A stretch of DNA of 50,316 nt from Saccoglossus kowalevskii. Its lineage: Eukaryota > Hemichordata > Enteropneusta > Harrimaniidae. The notes under the pieces were generated by a model. That model worked only from the letters and a program-made list of their open reading frames with translations, ran no database searches and was not told the origin of the DNA. The DNA is taken from positions 112,687 through 163,002 of the forward strand of contig NW_003141322.1 in the NCBI RefSeq assembly GCF_000003605.2. The letters are read 5' to 3'. Positions 1-47,906 of the stretch are shown here, one piece after another. Both the position numbers and the translations under genes were made by a program. How positions within the stretch are numbered: position 1 is the first letter of the stretch; every line of letters starts with the position of its first letter.

Positions 1-18198
<18,198 letters not shown>

Positions 18199-18560: not shown

Positions 18561-19517
18561 CTGAAAAGACATGTATTTACGCTCATATTGTAGTTTATTG
18601 TATTGATAATTGACTGATATCACGTAAGTAAGTCGAATTCAAGGTTTGCATCAAGTTTCATTCTTTAAGCAAGGATGTTTGTTGTAGTTGTTGGCGTCAG
18701 TGATTTCAGTAGTTTCGGAGTTGTGTGGCCATTATGATGCGTGTACTTATTTTCGATTTTCATGAATAGTTAATTTTATGGTGGATCAGTTTGTGTTGAA
18801 TAAATAAAAACAAAATTATTTTACGTGAGCTGTATACGTGTGATGCACCACTGTAGAGTTGTAATTTATAGACCCGACCACGCCCACTTTAAACCTATTT
18901 GGGAAGGCAAGGTCAGCATTCATGAAGACCATTTTGCGACTTCGAATTTCGTTAACGCCACTTATTTTGAAAATTAATTCAAAATTTCTTAAATCGACCA
19001 ACGGTACTTTATTGGCCAATATCCAAGCGTCGAGCACACATTGCTAACCACCTTCACTGTGACCCCTCCCCCATTATGAATAAAACTACAATCATTGAAT
19101 CAAAGTCGTGTACATTGTATGTGCAGATGTTGAGTAGGATTTCGATTACACGGGTAACAAATTTATTAAATAATTTATTAAATTCTTAATTTAAATAGTA
19201 AATTGTATGTAATATTTGGCTGAAAAAAAAGTTTTCGATTAGTTTGGCGAGAAAAAGTTTAGTGATTTCAATGTAAGTGATCACGTAATTGAATAAAAAT
19301 GTGTAAATTTGTTTGTCCAAAGAAGATGCGTTTGCCTGTTCTCTGCAATGCATTGACCATTTTATTCAGTCTTCAAATTTAGCTATTACACAATAGATTG
19401 CATAATAGATCTCTCGACACCTTCAGCAAAATGTTTACATTTTTAATCAATGCCTTAGTTTACGGGCAATGTATTGCACAACACTGACATGTCAGCCTGA
19501 GGAGAGGTTCAGACCTA
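18561..19517. other. Intergenic stretch, no gene recognised
   Basis: A GACCACGCCCAC segment (18876) and a short minus frame (18816-19037) were examined; neither matches a family I know. Confidence 0.4.
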
Positions 19518-20553
19518 TAAGACAAGGGAGGAAACAAAATATGCACACATTTTTCTAGCTGCCGAAAATCATACCTCAAAATACAAAATACCTTGTCCAA
19601 ACTAGTTACGAGTGCTTATAAGACATTGAACTATCGCAAAATGTTGGCCGATTACATGTAAATCATATATTTTTCCAGATTTTACGCATTTATGACGAAA
19701 TTTGACAATTTCTATTCTCTGTAATNNNNNNNNNNNNNNNNNNNNNNNNNNNNNNNNNNNNNNNNNNNNNNNNNNNNNNNNNNNNNNNNNNNNNNNNNNN
19801 NNNNNNNNNNNNNNNNNNNNNNNNNNNNNNNNNNNNNNNNNNNNNNNNNNNNNNNNNNNNNNNNNNNNNNNNNNNNNNNNNNNNNNNNNNNNNNNNNNNN
19901 NNNNNNNNNNNNNNNNNNNNNNNNNNNNNNNNNNNNNNNNNNNNNNNNNNNNNNNNNNNNNNNNNNNNNNNNNNNNNNNNNNNNNNNNNNNNNNNNNNNN
20001 NNNNNNNNNNNNNNNNNNNNNNNNNNNNNNNNNNNNNNNNNNNNNNNNNNNNNNNNNNNNNNNNNNNNNNNNNNNNNNNNNNNNNNNNNNNNNNNNNNNN
20101 NNNNNNNNNNNNNNNNNNNNNNNNNNNNNNNNNNNNNNNNNNNNNNNNNNNNNNNNNNNNNNNNNNNNNNNNNNNNNNNNNNNNNNNNNNNNNNNNNNNN
20201 NNNNNNNNNNNNNNNNNNNNNNNNNNNNNNNNNNNNNNNNNNNNNNNNNNNNNNNNNNNNNNNNNNNNNNNNNNNNNNNNNNNNNNNNNNNNNNNNNNNN
20301 NNNNNNNNNNNNNNNNNNNNNNNNNNNNNNNNNNNNNNNNNNNNNNNNNNNNNNNNNNNNNNNNNNNNNNNNNCAAATTTCGTCATAAATGCGTAAAATC
20401 TGGAAAAATATACGATTTACATGTAATCGGACAACATTTTGCGATAGTTCAATGTCTTATAAGCACTCGTAACTAGTTTGGACAAGGTATTTTGAGGTAT
20501 GATTATCGGCAGCTAGAAAAATGTGGGCATATTTTGTTTCCTCCCTTGTCTTA
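19518..20553. mobile_element. Long palindromic TIR element interrupted by assembly gap
   Basis: The left arm 19518-19704 starts TAAGACAAGGGAGGAAAC. The right arm 20374-20553 is its reverse complement with few differences and ends CCTCCCTTGTCTTA. Both outer ends abut TA, consistent with a TA target duplication. The centre is the N run. Long identical inverted arms suggest a foldback or Tc1/mariner-related MITE. The true interior is unknown. Confidence 0.65.
19726..20373. other. Assembly gap (648 N)
   Basis: Undetermined bases, positioned exactly between the two arms of an inverted repeat. The stated length may be only a scaffold estimate. Confidence 1.
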
Positions 20554-21069
20554 TATATAGTGCAAGCTGATCGACCGGAAACAAGTATTAGTGATTTTTG
20601 TGGTTTCGGAGCGTGACGATTAAATTTAATATCATATGCTTGCTTTACATTACTAAACTGTTTTAATTCCATAATTTCTATTATTTTGAGCAAGGGTAAG
20701 GTCCTGTACCGGGACGGCCCCATATACGTCCACGCATTGAGACGAATAGATCGTCAAGCCCCTGTGGTTCAGACCTGGGTATTCGACTATTGACAGTATT
20801 TTTATTCCATCTATTCAAAAATGCGTGATACTTTTCGAACGAATTTAATTATTACGAAGAAGTGTATAAAATATAGGGCCTAGCTATTTAATATGCTATC
20901 TCGGATATCCCAGGAAATATTTCGCAAACCAGAGCGAACAACGTTTATACTTAGATTGCCATGGAGATATTTCGACAATTGAAAATTCAACACCAATCGC
21001 AATCCTGGAACAAGAAGGGTATTCATAGTTACGGTAATAAATTCCCATTCACAGGTTATTATCTAAACT
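20554..21069. other. Intergenic stretch, no feature seen
   Basis: No coding or repeat signal recognised, apart from a short GC-rich imperfect palindrome near 20700-20720. Confidence 0.4.
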
Positions 21070-23133: not shown

Positions 23134-26100
23134 CTGAAAAAAGAATACAAAAAGGCAGTTTAGGTTGACAATTTTGGAACTACTAAACAAATTCGCCCAG
23201 CAATGCTCGTTCTCACTCTTTGATATGACAAAGTCCTTTTCTGGTGTGGTGGCGTTGTTTTCGTTTTTTACATTTGCACACCATATACCGACAATAAAAC
23301 TCAAAAGAGTCATTTCGGGCACTTTAAATAAGTAACATTGAAAGTAGCATGGTAGAAAAAAAGTAACCACCGAAAGTGTTGAAATGCTCTTTTATTGGTG
23401 ATAGCTCGCTAACAGCTTCGGGATAACGTAACGTTTTTTTCAGTATGCCGTGATGGGAGGAATGATTTGATACATTACTCAATGGAATTTGAAGTAGTTT
23501 TAAATTTTGACACTTGTTTGACCTCTGACCCAATCTAAACTTGTCCAGTTTTCAGTATTTTCCAGGAATGCCAAAACAAATTTTAGACCTTCACGATGAT
23601 TTTTGTCAGGAACGTGGGATTGTTCCTCTTCTAATAGTCAATTTGTCACAAAAACTAGGTCGAGGTTTACTATACATCTCAACAACGTGATATGCATAAA
23701 TTTGGTGGTGATGTTAATATTGTCTTGTCCATACTTTAAATCGCGTTGACAATAATAATGCAAATACTATTAAATACAATCCGAATGAATAAAAGAACAT
23801 ACTCACCCTTTCCCACTTCGCCTCTATGAATGGTAACTTTTTGGATTGTGCTAGTTGTATGAATGGCTTCAGTAGTATCATTAAACTCGCCCATCTGGCC
23901 ATTCTGTTCATCAACGGCGGTCTTATTGGGAATTAAAACTGCAGCACCTACTTCAATTTCGGTGTAGATAGCATCAAATCCAATACTTTGACCATAATTA
24001 CTTTGAAATATTACATCAATTTCATTGGTAGAAGTTGTAATAACATTCGGAATTCCATATCCACAAAGTTTCCTAGATTTTATGTTTCCATTGGATTTGT
24101 ATTCGAGAATCAGTACATGATCATAGTTTTCTGAGCATTCATTTCCATTTGCACTTGAATCAACGCCAAAGTACAAGAACTGCAACCGAATTCTTCTACC
24201 ACCACCAACAGTTATGTGCCAAGAACAATGTTTATTAGGAGGGTAGTAGTTCGGAAAATTTGGAGAATAGAACGTTCCCGAAGGACCAGTCAATGTAAAA
24301 TTACAAAGTTCAAAATCTTCACCAAGTGGTGCTATATCACGGGTTTTATATAAAGCTTGAAATCCAGTGCCATAGCCATATTTACTTTGGAATTCCACTT
24401 GCAACTTGTTCGTAGTGGTGAATATTGAAAGCGGAAGCTGGTTCCCACAATGCAAGGAAGAGAGTTCATCTTCAGTATCAACATCTGTGATCACCTTAAT
24501 ATGGTCATATACATCACTACAAGTTCCATTGAAAAGTTGAAAATCAAGATCCATGTACAGAAATTGTAACAAAATTGTATTTCCAATGGAAGTAGTAATT
24601 CTCCAAATGCAAGTTGAATGAAAAGGATATTGATTCGGAAATTTTGGAGATTGTATTAAACCATAGTCATTAGTTATGTCATAATTGCATTCGATTCTTG
24701 GAAGCTCTGAAGTATATGCAGGATGTTCATGTTTTTCTGTTGATGTTGTAGAGGATTCCGAAAAGGTATCTGTTGATGTTTTGTCTACAGTTAGTGTTAC
24801 TATAGCGCCAGCAGTGGTAACAATATCACCAGGAAGATGCCTGTCGAATTGTGGTGGCATTTCTTTATATATAGCAGCAAATCCGGTACCATGCCCATAA
24901 TTACTTTTAAATACAATATCAATAGCATTTGAGACAGTTGCAATTTTGTCAGGGATGTCTACTCCACACAGCGTTGAAGTTTTAACAATTTTTCCATTCT
25001 CACTGTATTCAACAATATTTAAATGGTCATATGAGCGAGAGCAATTTGTTCCAATCATCCGAGAATCCATATCAAAATAAAGGAATTTTAATTGTATGAC
25101 CTTCTCTTCTCTAACAATAATATTCCAAGAACATATTTTATGAGGTGGGTAATAGCTCGGAAAGTTCAAAGAATGCAATATTCCCGATGGACCAGAGAGC
25201 TTATAGTCACAAGGTTCTAGAACATCTCCAGGTGGTGCTAGATCACGAGTTTTAAACAAAGCTTGAAATCCAGTGCCATAGCCATATTTACTTTGGAATT
25301 CCACTTGTAACTTGTTTGTAGTGGTGAGTATTGGCGATGGAAGCTTGTCTCCACAATGCAAGGAAGAGAGTTCATCTTCAGTATCAACATCTGTGATCAC
25401 CTTAATATGGTCATATACATCACTACAAGTTCCATTGAAATGCTGAAAATCAAGATCCATGTACAGAAATTGTAACAAAATTGTATTTCCAATGGAAGTA
25501 GTAATTCTCCAAATGCAAGTAGAATGAAGAGGATATTGATTCGGAAATTTTGGAGATTGCATTAAACCATAGTCATTAGTTATGTCATAATTGCATTCGA
25601 TTCCTGGAAGCTCTGAAGTATGTGCAGTATGTTCATGTTTTTCTGTTGATGTTGTAGAGGATTCCGAAAAGGTATCTGTTGATGTTTTGTCTACAGTTCG
25701 TGTTACTATAGCGCCATCAGTGGTAACAATATCACCAGGAACATGCCTGTCGAATTGTGGTGGCATTTCTTTATATATAGCAGCAAATCCGGTACCATGC
25801 CCATAATTACTTTTAAATACAAGATCAATAGCATTTGAGACAGTTTCAATTTTGTCAGGGATGTCTACTCCACACAGCGTTGAAGTTTTAACAATTTTTC
25901 CATTCTCACTGTATTCAACAATATTTAAATGGTCATATGAGCGAGAGCAATTTGTTCCAATCATTCGGGAATCCATATCAAAATGAAGAAATTCTAATTT
26001 TATGACCTTCCCTTCTCCAACAATAATAGTCCAAGAACACATTTTATAAGGTGGGTAATAGCTCGGAAAGTTCAAAGAATGCAATGTTCCTGATGGACCA

Positions 26101-29100
26101 GAGAGGTTATAGTCGCAAGGTTCTAGAACATCTCCAGGTGGTACTAGATCACGGGTTTTAAACAAAGCTTGAAATCCAGTGCCATAGCCATATTTACTTT
26201 GGAATTCCACTTGTAACTTGTTTGTAGTGGTGAGTATTGGCGATGGAAGCTTGTCTCCACAATGCAAGGAAGAGAGTTCATCTTCAGTATCAACATCTGT
26301 GATCACCTTAATATGGTCATATACATCACTACAACTTCCATTGATATGCTGAAAATCAAGGTCCATGTACAAAAATGTTATAGATATTGTTTTTCCAACA
26401 GAGGCAGTAATTTGCCAAATGCATGTAGTCTGTTGAGGATATTCACTTGGAAAATTGGGCGACTGTATCACGCCATGATCTGATGTTAATACGTGAAAGC
26501 AATCACTGTCAGTATGTTGTGTAATTTGTTCAGGTGGAGCACGGGTAGTTGCTACATTGTGACCATGAACCCGCTCATATAGTGGGATAATTTCTTTATA
26601 ATGAATTTTAAATCCAGTACTGAATCCATAGTTACTATGAAAAATAACATCAATACTGTTTGTTGTAGTTATAATTGTATCAGGAATTCCTGGACTACAC
26701 ACCAAGGTTGACTTCACAACATTTCCACTTTTGGAGCTGTATTCTACAATTTGCAAATAATCATATGAAAGAGAACAATTTCCCATTGCCATCCTGGAAT
26801 CAATATCAAAGTACAGAAACTGTAGTTCAATTACTTTGTTATCTTCAACAACAATGTGCCAGGAACATAATGTATTTGGTGGATGGTAGCTCGGAAAATA
26901 CAACATGCCTGCAGGTCCAGTTTTGGTGAATTTACAGGGAGGCGATATGGATGTAGAAATTGGCGTATTGCTTGTAGTTTCCTCTGGCAATGTAATATAA
27001 TCTGGCTCCAGAGATTCGAATGAAACTTGAAATCCAGTGCCTTGTCCAGACATACTTTGAAAAAGTATCTGTAATCTATTTGTAGTGGTAATTAACTCGG
27101 GTGGCAAAACCCTTCCACAAAATACCAAAGACTCGGCATTCTCAGTACCAGGCTGTGTTACAATAGTAACATGATCATATAAAATATTACAAGTTTCATT
27201 GATTGGGACAAAATCCAGGTCCATGGCAAGAAATTTCAAATGAATTATTTTCTTCAAAGGAACAGTTACTTCCCAAGTACATGTTGTGTGATGTGGGTAC
27301 TGATTTGGAAATTGAGGTGATTGTATTAATCCATGGTCATATGAAATATCAAAGTTACAGTCACGTGTCAAGGACTGGGTTGTTGGTGACGACACCTCTT
27401 CAGAAATATCACCAAGACCAGGCCAATCACGACCATGATCTGCATCTATTTCATTATAAATTGCATCAAAACCAGTACTAAATCCATATTTACTTTGAAA
27501 CAAAATGCGCATTTCATTTGATCCAACTATTATGACATCTGGAACAAATTTACACAAAGTCAGAGTTTTGCCAACTCTCCCATCTGTGTGATATTCTACG
27601 ATCTTAACATTGTCATAAAGTTCTGAACATTCTTCACCATCGGTATGAGAGTCAATATCAAAATATAAAAATTCTAACCGAATAAATTTACCTTCCCCTA
27701 CAATAATATGCCAAAAACACAGTTGATGAGCAGGGTAGTAGCTTGGAAAATTTAATGACTGGATTACTCCAGATGATCCAGCGATGATGAAACTGCACAT
27801 TTCATCATCTGGTTGAATATTAGCTCGTTCCGGGCTATCAGTCATGTAATCAGACACATATTCTGCAGCAGCTTTCTCATCTACAGATTTAAATATAGCA
27901 TGAAATCCAGTACCATTACCATATTTGCTTCGAAATTCGACTTGTAAAGTTCTAAATTTTGTAATTATTTCTGAAGGTAGTTCACTCCCGCAATACAATG
28001 TGGTAACTGCATCTTCAGTATCAACATCTGTTTTCACAACAATATGATCATATTCCTCACGACAAGTTCCATTGAAATGTTGATCAAGATCCATGTACAA
28101 TATTTGTAATGATATTTTCATTCCAATCTGTGCAGTGATCTTCCAAATGCAGGTTGTATGTAGAGGGTAAGTACTTGGAAAGTTTGGCGACTGTATCACT
28201 CCATACTCTGATGTGATATCAAATTGACAGGGATTATTCTTGTCAATTTCAGTATCATTAATCAACAACTTTTCCCTAATCACATGATCTGTTGAGTCTT
28301 GTTCGATTTCTTCATAAAGAACATCAAATCCAGTACTAAATCCATACCTACTTTGTAATACAACATCAATTGTATTAGTAGCAGTTTTAATGATATCTGG
28401 CACTTCACTTCCACAAAGAATAATCACTTCTTCAGCATCTCCATGTGTACTGTACTCCTTGATCTTCATATGATCATACTGTTCAGAGCATTCAGGACCA
28501 ATATTCATTGTAGAATCAATATCAAAATACAAGAATTGCAATTTGATGACTTTACCTGCTTCAACAATAATGTGCCATGTGCACAATTGATTAGGTGGGT
28601 AGTAGCTTGGAAAATTCAAGGAATGAAACACGCCTAATGGTCCAGAGGTGTTAAATTCGCAAGACTCATTAACTTGATTCACTTCAAATGATTTGAAGAA
28701 TGCTTGAAACCCTGTACCAGAACCATACATACTTCGGAATTCTATTTGCAATTTATTTGTGAAAGTGTCAATATCCTGTGGAAGGTCACCCCCGCAAAAC
28801 AGCATAGTAGATTGATCTTTCGTACCAATACCTGTTATAATTGCAATATGGTCATATAGATGATTACAAGTTGCATTGAAATATTGAGAATCTAGGTCCA
28901 TGTACATAAATTGCAACACCACAATTTTTCCTACTGGAACTGTTATTTTCCAAATACATGTAGTTTGTTCAGGATACACTGTTGGAAAGTTTGGTGACTC
29001 GATTAATCCATGTTCGGCAGTTATATCATAAAGACATTCATCTTTTTGTTGTGGAATATCAACTGTTTGTGCATTATTCACTGAAGATGTTTCTTGTAAA

Positions 29101-32100
29101 TTAGTAATAATACCAGTAATCTCAGTTGTTGGAAGATTAATGTCCATGGTCGTCCCAGGTTGATCTATCTCATTGTATATTGCATCAAATCCAGTACTAA
29201 ATCCATACATACTTTGAAACGTAATTTCAATTCGCCTTGTGGATGTTTCAACTACACTTGGAATATCAAATCTACAAAACAACATTGATTTAATTACATT
29301 TCCATTGACATCATATTCTACTATTTTCACGTGATCATATGCCTCAGAACATCTGCCATCAACCGTTTTGGAATCAATATCAAAATACAAGAATTGCAGG
29401 TTTATGATTTTGTTATCTGCAACAGTTATGCGCCATGAGCACAGTGTATTGGGTGGATAGTACCCTGGGAAATTCAAGGAATGTATTACCCCTGATGGAC
29501 CATATTTGTTCACATTACAATGCTGTTCAAGCTTGTCTTCATCGGTAACAATCGCTAGTGCTTTAAAAAAAGCTTGAAACCCATTTCCAATACCATATTT
29601 ACTTTTAAATTCAACGCGTAATTTACTTGTTGTGGTAACTATTTTTGGTGGCGGATTGTGTCCACAGAATAGTGAAGTGACTGCATTGCCTGTATCAAAA
29701 TCTGTAATGACTGCCACATGATCATACATATTGCTACAAGTTCCGTTAATTTGTTCATTATCAATATCCATATACAAAAATTGTAAAAATATAGGTTTGT
29801 TTGAAGGAACTGTTATCTCCCACACGCATGCAGTATGTTCAGGATAGTAGTCTGGAAAGTTGGGCGTCTGCACAATTCCTTTTTCAGCATATATTTTCTC
29901 AGAGCATGATTGTTCAGATGATGTACCACGAACATGGTCTATTGGATAAGTTATAATCTGACGGGTTGGCGTTGGCGTTGGCGTCTCTGTGGATTGTATA
30001 TGCAGTTCAGTCTCATCTAGAATTTTAAGATTCAAAGTAGGGTTGAATTGGATCACATCGGAAGTAGATAGTACATTAACCTGATCAGAGGTTGAAATGC
30101 TTGATGGTGTAGATGTCTCAATGTGTTGTGCTTTCTCAGTAGTTGGGTGCTGGTTCAAAGTGTTTAAAAAAGTTTGTAATTGTGGTAGGGTTGTTGGGGT
30201 TGGGGTTGGGGCTAATGTACTTGCTTGGTCAGAAGTGCTGTTGAATTTATACATGCGATAATAAAGTTTGAAGCCAGTGTATAGCTTATTATTAAAAGTG
30301 TTAAATATCAATATCAATGAACCTGATGTAATCGGGCTTGGTAAATCTGCTCCACATAATATTTTTTCCCCAAGTGAATGACCTTGCCAATAATTAAGTA
30401 CAACAAGATGATCTCTCTGGTCAAGACATGGATTGTCTTCATTAACTGGCGGAAGATTGATGTGCAAAAAATTAACCAGAATGTAACAGTTCGTACATGC
30501 TGTTATTTCCCACTTGCATGATAGGTGGTCTGGATATCTTAATGGGTATAAAGGTGAAGTTATGAAATCAGATTTGTTTTCAAATATGCCACCACATTCA
30601 ACATTGTCACTCACAATGTTCTCTGTTGGCACTATAGTATCTGATTGTTCAGTATCAATAGCAGTGATAGGAAGGGAGGCGACAGTTGACAGATCATGTG
30701 TACCAAATCTGGATAGAACAGTCTCAAAATGCATCTCAAAACCAAGGAAGAAATCAACATTTTGAAAGCTTATAAACTGTAAATAGATGTTGTTCACTGG
30801 CAGTGTAAATTTCACCCCAGTCTGGAAGCCACACAATCTATAACCTTGTACAACTAAAGTGCCATTCACAGAAGCGTTAAGTAAAATATGGTCCTGTTGA
30901 TAATCGCACAATCCATCACTTGATGGTAGCGGCATGTCAATGAATATGAAATTCATGGATATGAAACAAGTTTCACATGCTTGAATCGTCCATTCACAAA
31001 AAGAATCAGATGGGTATGGGGATGGGTATTTGGGTGATGTGACAATTTCAGACGGTTTCCCTAGTAAATGCCGACAATCATTGTTCAATTGATGCTCCAA
31101 CGGACCCTTTGTGCTACTCTCGTGTATTTCGTCATTTAACTTTGATATGTCGAAAGCTGTAGCCAACAATTTTCTTCTGAACGATGTTGTGCTCGAAAAT
31201 TCTTCATTTCTATGTTTTAATTCCATATCACCTACAGACATGGCGGCAATTCCTGGTAACAGTGGGAACAGATTCTTCGGATGTACAAGATTCCCATTAT
31301 TACGTCTTTGAATGTTTGCAGGCATGGAAATGAATTCAATAGAAAAACCCCTTCCCGTAGTGTAACTGTCCGAATACTGAGATATTATTATCACGTTAGA
31401 GCTTGATGTGATGTGCTGCAACCCATGTTCATTGCACAGTGTACAAAGAAGGGGACCTGTGATGGTTTCCTCCGTGATATTCATATGATCACTAAACACA
31501 CTACAGTAACCATGGCCAGTATTAGGAAGATCTACATCTTTAACAGATATACTTATCTGGGAACCATATGGAGCCGTTATCTTCCAGTGACACGAGAGAT
31601 TATTGGTGTAGTTTTTCGGATATCCCAGTGACGTCACAATCCCTTCCTCTGCCACGATGGATCGTCCACATGCTACGTGAAACAGAATGGTTTGGTCAGT
31701 AAAATATCATTGAGCTGTTTTTAATTGATGTATACAATAAAGACCCCAGTACATGCGCATATGAAAAAATATACCAATCGAGGTTTAGGCTTGGAAGACA
31801 AATTATAGAAGCAAAACATTTCCAAAAATTATAGAAATTTAAGGTTTCACCCTGAAACGCCAAAATATGGGAGAGACCAGTACTGTATTATTAAATGATA
31901 CCAGAGAAACATTTGTACAGGTAATGTTTGCATTATAGTAATGGGGTCAGCAAATGTCTATCTACATACCCCAAGCCAGCAAATTACAAAAAACTAGTAA
32001 AACTGTTACACTTCATTTTTCAAGCCCTCCACCGATGGGTGAACGGCAGGAAAGACCCTTATTGGGCTGAACATTCACATTAGAAAACTCGCTATAGTTA

Positions 32101-35110: not shown

Positions 35111-36015
35111 ATGCGTGGCATTGCAAATGAAATGTACTACTAGGTTTGTTGCACGTATGATTTAGGATTTTGAGGTCCAACGCAAGGAAGAGTTTTTCAA
35201 TCTACAGTATTTTGAAAACAAATTGTATTGAAAAAATTGTAAAATACGATTTGTTATATTTATATTTTTTAATCTCGCGTTTTTCTGATTTTCTTTATAG
35301 ATGCATGCGTTGACAAGTCGTGAAAGTCAAGTATATAAAACTCGATCTCGAACTTTAGTTTATTAATTTATTAGTCTCTATTATACAAACTATTTGTAGC
35401 ACGTTCTACTCTAAACAAACATAGGATCCCGTAGTGAAGTCCGGGAGGGGCAAGATGACTGACATCCCCGACCATTAATTGTCAATCCTGCTTGAAGACA
35501 TTTTTGTCTCCAGAAAATTGGTACGGTTTAGGGTTAAATCCAGTTTTAAATTGTTACCGCGGTTCTAGGGGCAATGTATAGTACAATAGTACTGGGGATA
35601 CAATGAACCAACGAGATTACTTCCTGTTTTTTTCTGATTTTACGCCAACAAAGTCACAGTCGATTTAAATATACAGGTGTACATGTGAAACAAACACGTG
35701 TCTTTCTGTTACGTAATTCAGTAGTATCCATTAATTTCATCCAATTTAACCGAATACAAAGTTACTTCCCCGGTGGGTGTGATATTTGTGAGTTGGGACC
35801 CAATGAAGATTCGAAAGTTTAACGCTTGAATTTCGTTGACTGAGGTTATACTTCTGCATTGGATTGATTGATCTGAGCATGGAACTATAGTTTATAGTTC
35901 CATGATCTGAGTCAAACAATCAATTTGTTCTTCCCTCAGTCTCTGTTGACACACTTACACACTTCACGTAGTGGTAGGTTACCTTGTTGGGGCTTTGTTG
36001 CCCTTTAAATACTAT
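35111..36015. other. Intergenic stretch with one tiny hairpin insertion
   Basis: No gene recognised. A TATATAAAA word at about 35332 faces the plus strand but has no open frame after it. The hairpin insertion at 35871-35911 is listed separately. Confidence 0.4.
35871..35911. repeat. Tiny hairpin insertion 1 (27 nt) with direct repeats
   Basis: ATCTGAG at 35871-35877 is repeated at 35905-35911 (the match extends upstream to TGATCTGAG). Between them 27 nt form a perfect hairpin: arms CATGGAACTATA and TATAGTTCCATG around GTT. It begins CA and ends TG. Confidence 0.8.
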
Positions 36016-36020
36016 TGTAG

Positions 36021-36115
36021 AATACTATATTTTCGCTTGGAATTTATTTTTGATATTTTCGCTGAAGCGATGCTTCAGTGAAAATAAAATCCAGCGAATG
36101 CTAGTATACTTGTTT
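36021..36115. repeat. Foldback element with about 33-bp arms
   Basis: AATACTATATTTTCGCTTGG and the following ATTTATTTTT recur inverted as AAAATAAAATCCAGCGAATG and CTAGTATACT, with a second small inverted pair CTGAAGC/GCTTCAG in the centre. About 95 nt in all, probably a palindromic MITE. No target duplication fixed. Confidence 0.5.
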
Positions 36116-36852
36116 TCATGTGTCACGCATTAAACTCGTCAACAATCAATGAAAAAAAAAATCCATAAAAAAAACACATGAAATATAATTCCAGCTAAAA
36201 TAAAGTATTTCACAGTATATTCAGAATCAAATAATTCGTTTTCTTTATTATCCGAGGCCTTAATATAATCATTCATTCTACAGTGCTTTCGGGAAAGTCA
36301 TTTCCATGTTTAGTTTTATAGTTAGTTTATCATTAATTTATCTAACGTTTCATTCAAATACTCTTTAGACAAGTGTTAGGGATTAGCAATGATAATTCCG
36401 TGTTACACGCTGTTACGCAAAGCCATTCAGATTTTGATGATACGGTACGCGCATGTGTCGATTGAGTGACTCCCGCTGCACATGTGCAGATTGGGTAATC
36501 CTTTTCAAGGGGCGTATTCGTCGGCGTTGATGTCACGGTGATCGTTCTGGTTGGTCAACTGCAGTTTTCAATTGTAAATATCAAATAATTGAAATAATCT
36601 TCTTATTGTTATTATTGATAATCATCCAAAAACACTTGGAAGTCAAGAATCGAATACCCGTTTCTACGTTGTTTTGAAGAGAAAGAAGAATATTTAGACT
36701 GACGTTTTTTTAGATTTTTATACGTAGGGTTAATTGCTGCATTAGCTGATTAGTATGTGCAGTTTAATCCCTGGTGTTGGACGCCAGTCCGCCAATTGAA
36801 ACAAAAAAAATAACGAATGTGCCTCAGTATGTCAATCATTTTTTGAGTTTGA
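36116..36852. other. Intergenic stretch, no feature seen
   Basis: AT-rich with a self-complementary CTGCACATGTGCAG near 36475. Nothing else recognised. Confidence 0.4.
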
Positions 36853-36892
36853 ATATAATCACCGTCCCGGTGTTGAGGGACGGTGATATAAT
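36853..36892. repeat. Tiny hairpin insertion 2 (26 nt) with 7-bp direct repeats
   Basis: ATATAAT at 36853-36859 is repeated at 36886-36892. Between them 26 nt form a hairpin with arms CACCGTCCC and GGGACGGTG around an 8-nt loop. It begins CA and ends TG and is much more GC-rich than its surroundings. Confidence 0.8.
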
Positions 36893-38640
36893 TGACCTGC
36901 AACTTGAAGACGATGCACTACATGTATAAAATCTAACACAGGTTTCTAATATGACCACTAGTCGGCAATTTTTAATCAGATCAAAAAAATACTAGATACC
37001 ATCATGTATCAATGTACGTAAAAGGTTTGGAAACAATCTTCCATGAACTTCAAAGAAAACGTGACAGACGAAAGCTGAAATTACAAAAATATTCATTAAA
37101 AATTGAGAATTAATGACATCGTCATGATATGATCAAATCTCATAAAAAAGAATATATGTACCAAGTATAAAAGCAATAGTGGTAATGGTTTTCATTTTTT
37201 TAGTGACGAAGTCAATCAGCCTAGACATGCCTGAGGAACCTGCATAAGACATAAGTGTAAGACATAAATGGCCACCAGTTGGTAAAAGGTTGTCAAAATA
37301 GAAAACAAATTGACCTGCCTAGGTGTACCATTATGTTTTGTCTTTGTACTTGGTTCCAGCAACAAATTCAGTCATATGAAATGGCCAACAGAAAATTGTA
37401 TTGTAACAGTGTTACGTTTATGCCATATAACAAATAATTAGTGTGAATTGATAGTGCACAGGACAGAAGTGTCAAAATTATGGTGTATACATACATGGTG
37501 GCCAGGGAATGAATGATTCAATTCAGGAAACAAAATTACATGCCTAAAGGTCCATGATGTTCATTATATCATAGACCCTCCAGTAGAGGGTCTATGATTA
37601 TATGGACCAAGTTTGAATTCAATCAGTTAATGAGTAACTGAAATCCATTTCCAGAGTATATGACCTGATGTGCGAAGTTTAGACTTGATTAGTTCAGGCA
37701 TGTACGAGATATGGCTCCATGGAACTGCATTTGTTTTAACAAGATGACCACCAGTCAGCAATTTTGAATTTAATGGTGATAAAAATCTGATGTGCACCTG
37801 AAATCTACAGATAATATACAAGATCCTGGTACAGATTTCGAAGCAGCAAACACTTTTTTTCTCTCCTACTTTTAGTTTTATACAAAAATGTCCTGTGTCA
37901 CTATTGTAATCGCCAAAATGTGGGCACTCAAAGCATAGCATATACCCTATATACCAACGTTGTATATTAAATCACTTGCAAGTGGAATCAAAGAAATTTT
38001 CTCCTGTGTGCTAAAGTGGTTGAAAGCATGAAGTTTGAACAAGGAATACTGTATTTACTATATTAGAAATACATCTACAATTCATATGAAACAAAATATG
38101 TATATATTGCATGCAAAATCATCAGAGTATGTCTTATTTTGACCACTGACTTGTCTTTGTCTGAGATATTACAGTTATGCATATTAATGAGGTCACATGA
38201 GCCCATTTGTACAAGATAATTAATATAAAAAAATACCAACACCGAAGTAATCAGATCTGTGGATTACTCAAAAACACCAATTTACAATGTTTCATCAAAA
38301 TTTAGTGGTACCGGTACTCAATATATCTGAATCATACAATTCGACTCTAAATTAACAATGTATATGGTTTATCTAAGAGCACCTATGTACAAGTACCTAG
38401 TTTCAATGAAATCTGATGATTGGCTGAAATATTGATGGAAATGCTAAAAATTCATGAATTCATATGCAAATTATGTCATTAATATGCAAGATTTCAATCA
38501 AAGACAACAGTTTTGTGTATTATCCAAGAACTACATTTCATTGAAATCTGTTAAATGGTATTTTAAAGACCAATGCAAAAGCTTAAAATTGGCTAACATG
38601 TGCACACACAGCAATTTTTAAACAAAATGGTCATTAATTT
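36893..38640. repeat. Degraded family A and B repeats
   Basis: About 36900-37960 carries family A words (ATGGCCACCAGTTGG, AAGGTCCATGATG, ACCAAGTTTGAATTCAATC, GATATGGCTCCATGGAACTG). About 38160-38640 carries family B-like words (ATGCATATTAATGAGGTC, TTCATTGAAATCTG). No terminal hairpin of either family remains. Confidence 0.5.
37563..37603. repeat. Tiny hairpin insertion 3 (27 nt) inside a family A copy
   Basis: ATTATAT at 37563-37569 is repeated at 37597-37603. The 27 nt between have arms CATAGACCCTC and GAGGGTCTATG around CAGTA, beginning CA and ending TG. Removing the hairpin and one repeat restores the family A order AAGGTCCATGATGTTC then ATTATATGGACCAAGTTTGA, comparable to 2264-2299. Confidence 0.85.

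Positions 38641-40947: not shown

Positions 40948-47906
<6,959 letters not shown>

Follow-up and report, generated by a model that had tools for sequence, protein, structure and literature searches.

Three short palindromes in a 50,316-nt stretch of the Saccoglossus kowalevskii genome (contig NW_003141322.1, positions 112,687 to 163,002; hereafter the window) are almost certainly excision footprints of DNA transposons of the P superfamily. The three hairpins would derive from three different element families. The mechanism is already known, and the host and the families are new; the titles and opening lines of abstracts in the literature surveyed mentioned neither a genome-wide census of P footprints nor P elements in molluscs. 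Our reading is drawn from the genome sequence, in which no element was caught excising.

Three palindromes between exact 7-bp repeats

The three palindromes are 26-27 nt long, have CA...TG ends and are each enclosed by exact 7-bp direct repeats (plus strand), read as target-site duplications. Footprint 1 (35878..35904), between copies of ATCTGAG at 35871..35877 and 35905..35911, would combine 12 nt and 15 nt from the two ends of a family-1 element, whose terminal inverted repeat (TIR) begins with CATGGAACTATAAACCCC. Footprint 2 (36860..36885), between copies of ATATAAT at 36853..36859 and 36886..36892, would combine 9 nt and 17 nt from the two ends of a family-2 element (TIR beginning with CACCGTCCCTCAACACCC), and footprint 3 (37570..37596), between copies of ATTATAT at 37563..37569 and 37597..37603, about 18 nt and 11 nt from those of a family-3 element (TIR beginning with CATAGACCCTCCAGTAGA). 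The two ends in footprint 3 overlap by 2 nt of microhomology (GA); plain matching gives 21 nt and 11 nt, the split at 18 being our interpretation. At all three sites a T stands three bases before the duplicated 7-mer and an A three bases after it, which is the motif of the genome-wide class.

The earlier note on this DNA had described these coordinates, arms, loops, CA/TG ends and repeats, all of which were borne out when the sequence was re-examined, and had argued that three exact 7-bp repeats were unlikely to be accidental. The null tests agree: among the 38 hairpins of the window (arms of at least 8, loop of at most 14), the abutting repeat was 7 bp in these three and at most 3 bp in the other 35, and among 753 hairpins found by the same criteria in 40 windows of simulated sequence the longest abutting repeat was 6 bp, with none at 7 bp. 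A strict scan for the design (exact 7-bp repeat, CA..TG ends, 9/9 outer pairs, 18-60 nt) returned exactly the three hairpins from the window and nothing from 40 simulated windows; when repeat and arm were each permitted a single mismatch, the window gained none and the 40 simulated windows gave two.

A search with 2.1 kb around the window sites for a second copy of the locus found none, only a dispersed repeat. This repeat (window 36004-36224, about 215 bp, just downstream of footprint 1) has around 40 scored places, mostly 77-82% identical.

Genome-wide copies and target-site duplications

Across the genome (572 Mb in 4,830 contigs), the exact 27-mer of hairpin 1 was found at eight sites, all in different places. 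Seven of these abut a direct repeat of at least 7 bp, and at the eighth (locus L007) an extra tip of the same element sits between hairpin and repeat. When any sequence was accepted at the centre, the arm pairs of hairpins 1, 2 and 3 occurred at 58, 99 and 143 sites, respectively, and the reversed-pattern controls at 0 sites each; the 143 palindromes with the outer arms of hairpin 3 fall into several subfamilies. The sites mostly carry repeats of their own; the check proposed in the earlier note, which asked for numerous copies each with a different 7-bp repeat, was thus positive. Some sites represent one event copied within other repeats (L018, L059, L066, L070), as three sites on C1482 probably also do, and the site counts therefore overstate the number of independent events.

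Further members of the class were seen in the retrieved flanks. A fourth arm pair found there has 32 genome sites (control 0), a count of arm pairs alone. A family-blind scan of 168,103 nt of flanks yielded four more palindromes with CA..TG ends and 7-bp repeats whose arms belong to none of these families, and a second flank scan, with families 1 and 3 left out, yielded a fifth of only 14 nt; these flanks were picked around footprints and transposases, so the palindrome density in them is a biased estimate. The second scan also contained 103 other hairpins, 97 of which had an abutting repeat of at most 4 bp. One hairpin (L017:1994-2016) lies outside the class: its direct repeat measures 9 bp, and it lacks the CA..TG ends.

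Exact 7-bp repeats flank 58 of the 77 sites retrieved over the three families: 29/42 in family 1 (58 sites in all), 17/20 in family 2 (99 in all) and 12/15 in family 3 (143 in all). Two more family-1 sites have an 8-bp repeat, and one has 11 bp inside a GT-rich stretch. No exact repeat of at least 7 bp was found at 16 retrieved sites (10/42, 3/20 and 3/15 in families 1, 2 and 3), at several of which the copies differ at one or two bases. The target motif is palindromic, the 7-mer tending to begin with GT and end with AC and to be accompanied by T at -3 and A at +9 (a tendency towards TnnGTnnnACnnA): T at -3 is present in 52 and A at +9 in 42 of the 59 footprints with exact 7-bp repeats (29, 18 and 12 by family, window hairpins 1 and 2 included), and each is present in 16 of the 17 full elements with exact duplications.

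These results leave practically no room for the explanation that chance hairpins fell beside chance repeats, or that the palindromes arose by template switching without a link to transposons. Template switching can yield perfect palindromes, but the null scans of simulated windows, the hundreds of sites against controls of 0 and the existence of elements bearing the same ends all speak against such an origin.

Parent elements

The family-1 18-mer CATGGAACTATAAACCCC occurs at 138 places in the genome, and among the 100 of these that were listed we counted, by eye, 22 inverted pairs about 450-760 bp apart. The 20 family-1 elements that were retrieved measure 446-757 bp, and 17 of them have an exact 7-bp duplication. 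Their TIR is perfect over 30 bp in 19 of the 20 and has one mismatch in the twentieth, its first 18 nt matching by construction. No transposase was linked to family 1.

The arm of hairpin 2 is the terminal sequence of a 7,942-bp element (C1630:10113-18054) whose two 30-bp TIRs are identical and whose frames match two RNase-H domains of P transposases, PF21787 (E = 1.1e-27) and PF21789 (E = 1.2e-06). The best solved-structure match of its 610-aa frame, a weak one, is the Drosophila P transposase (6p5a; E = 0.0048). This transposase between TIRs places the family-2 parent in the P superfamily. The arm of hairpin 3, in turn, is the terminal sequence of an element of 1,829 bp that has a TIR perfect for 33 bp and a duplicated GCGTATT. 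The TIRs thus measure 30, 30 and 33 bp in families 1, 2 and 3 and begin with CA, as is the case in the P superfamily. Another feature of the superfamily, a 7-8 bp duplication at a palindromic GT..AC target, is likewise present, except in the flanks of the 7,942-bp transposase-bearing element, where the 7-mers on either side are unlike each other. Shared end design, duplication length and motif suggest that families 1 and 3 also belong to the P superfamily, to which the retained-length wall of family 1, described below, would point as well.

PF21787 has 13 matches in the host genome and none in 14 control genomes. A TIR search in 13 transposase loci, each 3.2-3.4 kb long, gave nothing useful. 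With longer flanks, three of these loci revealed a single family-2 end and a single family-3 end; the opposite end of the family-2 element came to light only once further adjacent pieces of its contig had been joined. For family 3, a related TIR was found on one side only of a transposase copy (L072). A 12-bp inverted repeat around the L072 transposase was discarded as a TIR pair, that length being expected by chance in 7 kb according to our own arithmetic, and only the TIR-like end on the right-hand side of L072 was taken into account. The three transposase frames that were scanned showed no THAP domain. A 351-aa open frame at L071:6936-7991 (minus strand), within the 7.9-kb P-like element, had no Pfam match.

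Retained ends and junctions

The footprint reading draws on the difference between elements and palindromes: although the TIRs reach 30-33 nt, almost no palindrome retains more than 17-18 nt of either end. In family 1, 97 of the 100 ends at the 50 listed sites (of 58) keep at most 18 nt, two others keeping 19 and one 26, and in family 2, 98 of the 100 ends at the 50 listed sites (of 99) keep at most 17 nt, with one at 18 and one at 19. The limit is weaker in family 3, which was scored against 18-nt references only; here 49 of the 50 listed sites (of 143) measure at most 36 nt, where up to 42 was allowed. Short products are under-counted, because the search patterns set a lower limit (12 nt in family 1, 9 nt in family 2).

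This wall bears on the possibility that the palindromes are internal-deletion derivatives, produced by interrupted gap repair with the sister as template rather than by end-joining of cut ends. Such repair would leave a continuum of lengths, whereas between the family-1 arms we found 58 sites at 24-54 nt against one at 55-85 nt, the range from 86 to about 440 nt lying outside the scan. Incomplete repair synthesis does give most products of one Drosophila P-element assay, as reported in PMC2895639; in favour of this origin, too, a few copies keep more, such as a 54-nt family-1 site with 26 nt of one end, and the family-1 elements of 446-704 bp miss internal parts of the 740-bp form. On balance we judge interrupted gap repair a very unlikely source of the palindromes. 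In the single family-1 site at 55-85 nt (C3054:34410-34492), a CACAGTCCC...GGGACTGTG unit is nested in the footprint and has a separate 7-bp repeat, GTTTATA.

The junctions are diverse. Among the 50 listed family-1 junctions (of 58), 29 have neither filler nor overlap and 21 have 1-12 nt of filler; no overlap was found in these 50, where the search pattern hides overlaps within the outer 12 nt. The 50 listed family-2 sites (of 99) comprise 21 plain junctions, 12 with a 1-nt overlap and 17 with 1-8 nt of filler, 35 of the junctions being distinct. A 20-mer predicted for joining at a shared TATA has 19 genome sites and a control of 0, by sequence count alone. At L098, additional tips of the same element stand on both sides of a family-2 footprint in place of a 7-bp repeat, forming a palindrome within a palindrome.

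A further alternative holds that the palindromes are minimal mobile elements, TIR-only units of 20-36 bp that transpose themselves and duplicate 7 bp. The 27-mer that is identical at eight sites, nearly all with an abutting repeat, fits such units, but the palindromes are not copies of one sequence, as the distinct family-2 junctions illustrate; arms of unequal length and filler meet at the centre, the outer limit stays at 17-18 nt, and longer elements with longer TIRs exist. The movement of P elements requires their internal transposase-binding sites. The presence of such sites in P elements, as described in PMC7776569, is an additional point against TIR-only units, which we regard as extremely unlikely. 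The earlier note had seen in the hairpins a class built of terminal inverted repeats and had proposed either minimal mobile elements or a break-repair mechanism that inserts hairpins. This proposal is supported in part: the class, the inverted repeats and the break-repair origin agree with our findings, whereas the variable junctions, the limit per end and the longer elements with the same ends speak against the hairpins being mobile themselves or having been inserted as hairpins.

Excision of a P-like element would account for the palindromes as follows. An element with TIRs of about 30 bp starting with CA would have inserted at a palindromic target with the TnnGTnnnACnnA tendency, duplicating 7 bp, as the anatomy indicates. 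To judge by the retained lengths, the transposase would then have nicked one strand at the tip of the element and the other 17-18 nt inside it, leaving on each chromosome end a 3' tail that consists of the element's first 17-18 nt. The two tails would be identical in sequence and thus not complementary to each other; the junctions suggest that they were trimmed before end-joining, which would have been direct in some cases and in others would have involved microhomology or short filler. Two inverted tips joined head to head would form a palindrome between both 7-bp copies. Each window site would accordingly once have held an element, and it is the retained-length limit that points to a staggered cut 17 nt inside.

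Comparison with known P-superfamily elements

According to PMC7776569, one of the strands is cut by the Drosophila P transposase 17 nt within the element, which generates 17-nt 3' extensions, and end-joining products in Drosophila are described in PMC2895639 as the duplicated 8-mer with at most 17 nt of each end and a microhomology or insertion. The footprints here have the same build as these excision products (PMC7776569, PMC2895639), namely a duplication, the short remainders of both ends and a second duplication, with microhomology or filler; the retained limit lies at 18 nt for family 1 and at 17 nt for family 2, compared with 17 nt in the P element. The Drosophila melanogaster P element also shares CA...TG ends, a TIR of about 30 bp (31 in P) and P-type transposase domains with the elements described here, whereas its duplication is 8 bp rather than 7 bp and the TIR sequences differ. 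The Drosophila products come from a crossing scheme, while the footprints here are read as genomic fossils.

Galileo, a member of the P superfamily in Drosophila, generates 7-bp duplications with the palindromic consensus GTANTAC, near the GTnnnAC tendency seen here, but its TIRs are very long (PMC4168063) as compared with 30-33 bp, and by this feature the present elements fall outside the Galileo subgroup. The flanking motif (T at -3, A at +9) also differs from Galileo. Zebrafish Pdre2/THAP9 offers another example of P-like elements outside insects with internally deleted copies, Pdre2 having 8-bp duplications; according to PMC7776569 and PMC10983969, Pdre2 has a 13-bp TIR and distant subterminal repeats, unlike the elements here, and excision by zebrafish THAP9 in fly cells leaves larger flanking deletions (PMC10983969), also unlike the footprints here.

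Clustering and a possible archive of break repair

In the window, the three families lie within 1.7 kb, and the strict scan found none elsewhere in it. A second cluster, at L003, comprises three footprints with three arm sequences within 1.4 kb (1457-1483, 1501-1527 and 2821-2851), one of the arm sequences being close to family 3. The two clusters may reflect shared insertion hot spots. In Drosophila, P elements favour promoters and origins. Drawing on both clusters and on the nested unit at C3054, we tentatively entertain a broader reading, for which the case is nearly but not quite as good as the case against: that this genome is a large, readable archive of germline double-strand-break repair, with P-like footprints of many families, thousands by extrapolation, concentrated in hot spots hit repeatedly by different families. 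If so, cleavage offsets and end-joining preferences could be read for each family without experiment.

The dense archive and the possible clustering are of more interest than the known mechanism. If transposase tails are of fixed length, each scar records both the position of the cut and the mode of joining, and a scar-rich genome therefore preserves, in an animal that is not a model species, a natural history of how germline breaks were end-joined. In addition, the footprints indicate P-like families that may have few full copies left. Small palindromes with 7-bp repeats could be taken for a novel class of mobile DNA; those described here are best explained as repair scars.

Other features of the window

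The window contains several other features. On the minus strand, positions 23736-31655 hold an open frame of 2,639 aa that includes 17 stretches of CUB domain as well as internal repeats, many of which are spaced by about 906 nt. Two stretches bounded by inverted repeats (8781-9695 and 14774-15618; 915 and 845 bp) are possibly other non-autonomous transposons, and a near-perfect inverted repeat around a 648-N gap (19516-20555) is either a fold-back or an assembly artefact. Finally, positions 41272-42585 are occupied by a tandem array of about 20 copies of a 65-bp unit.
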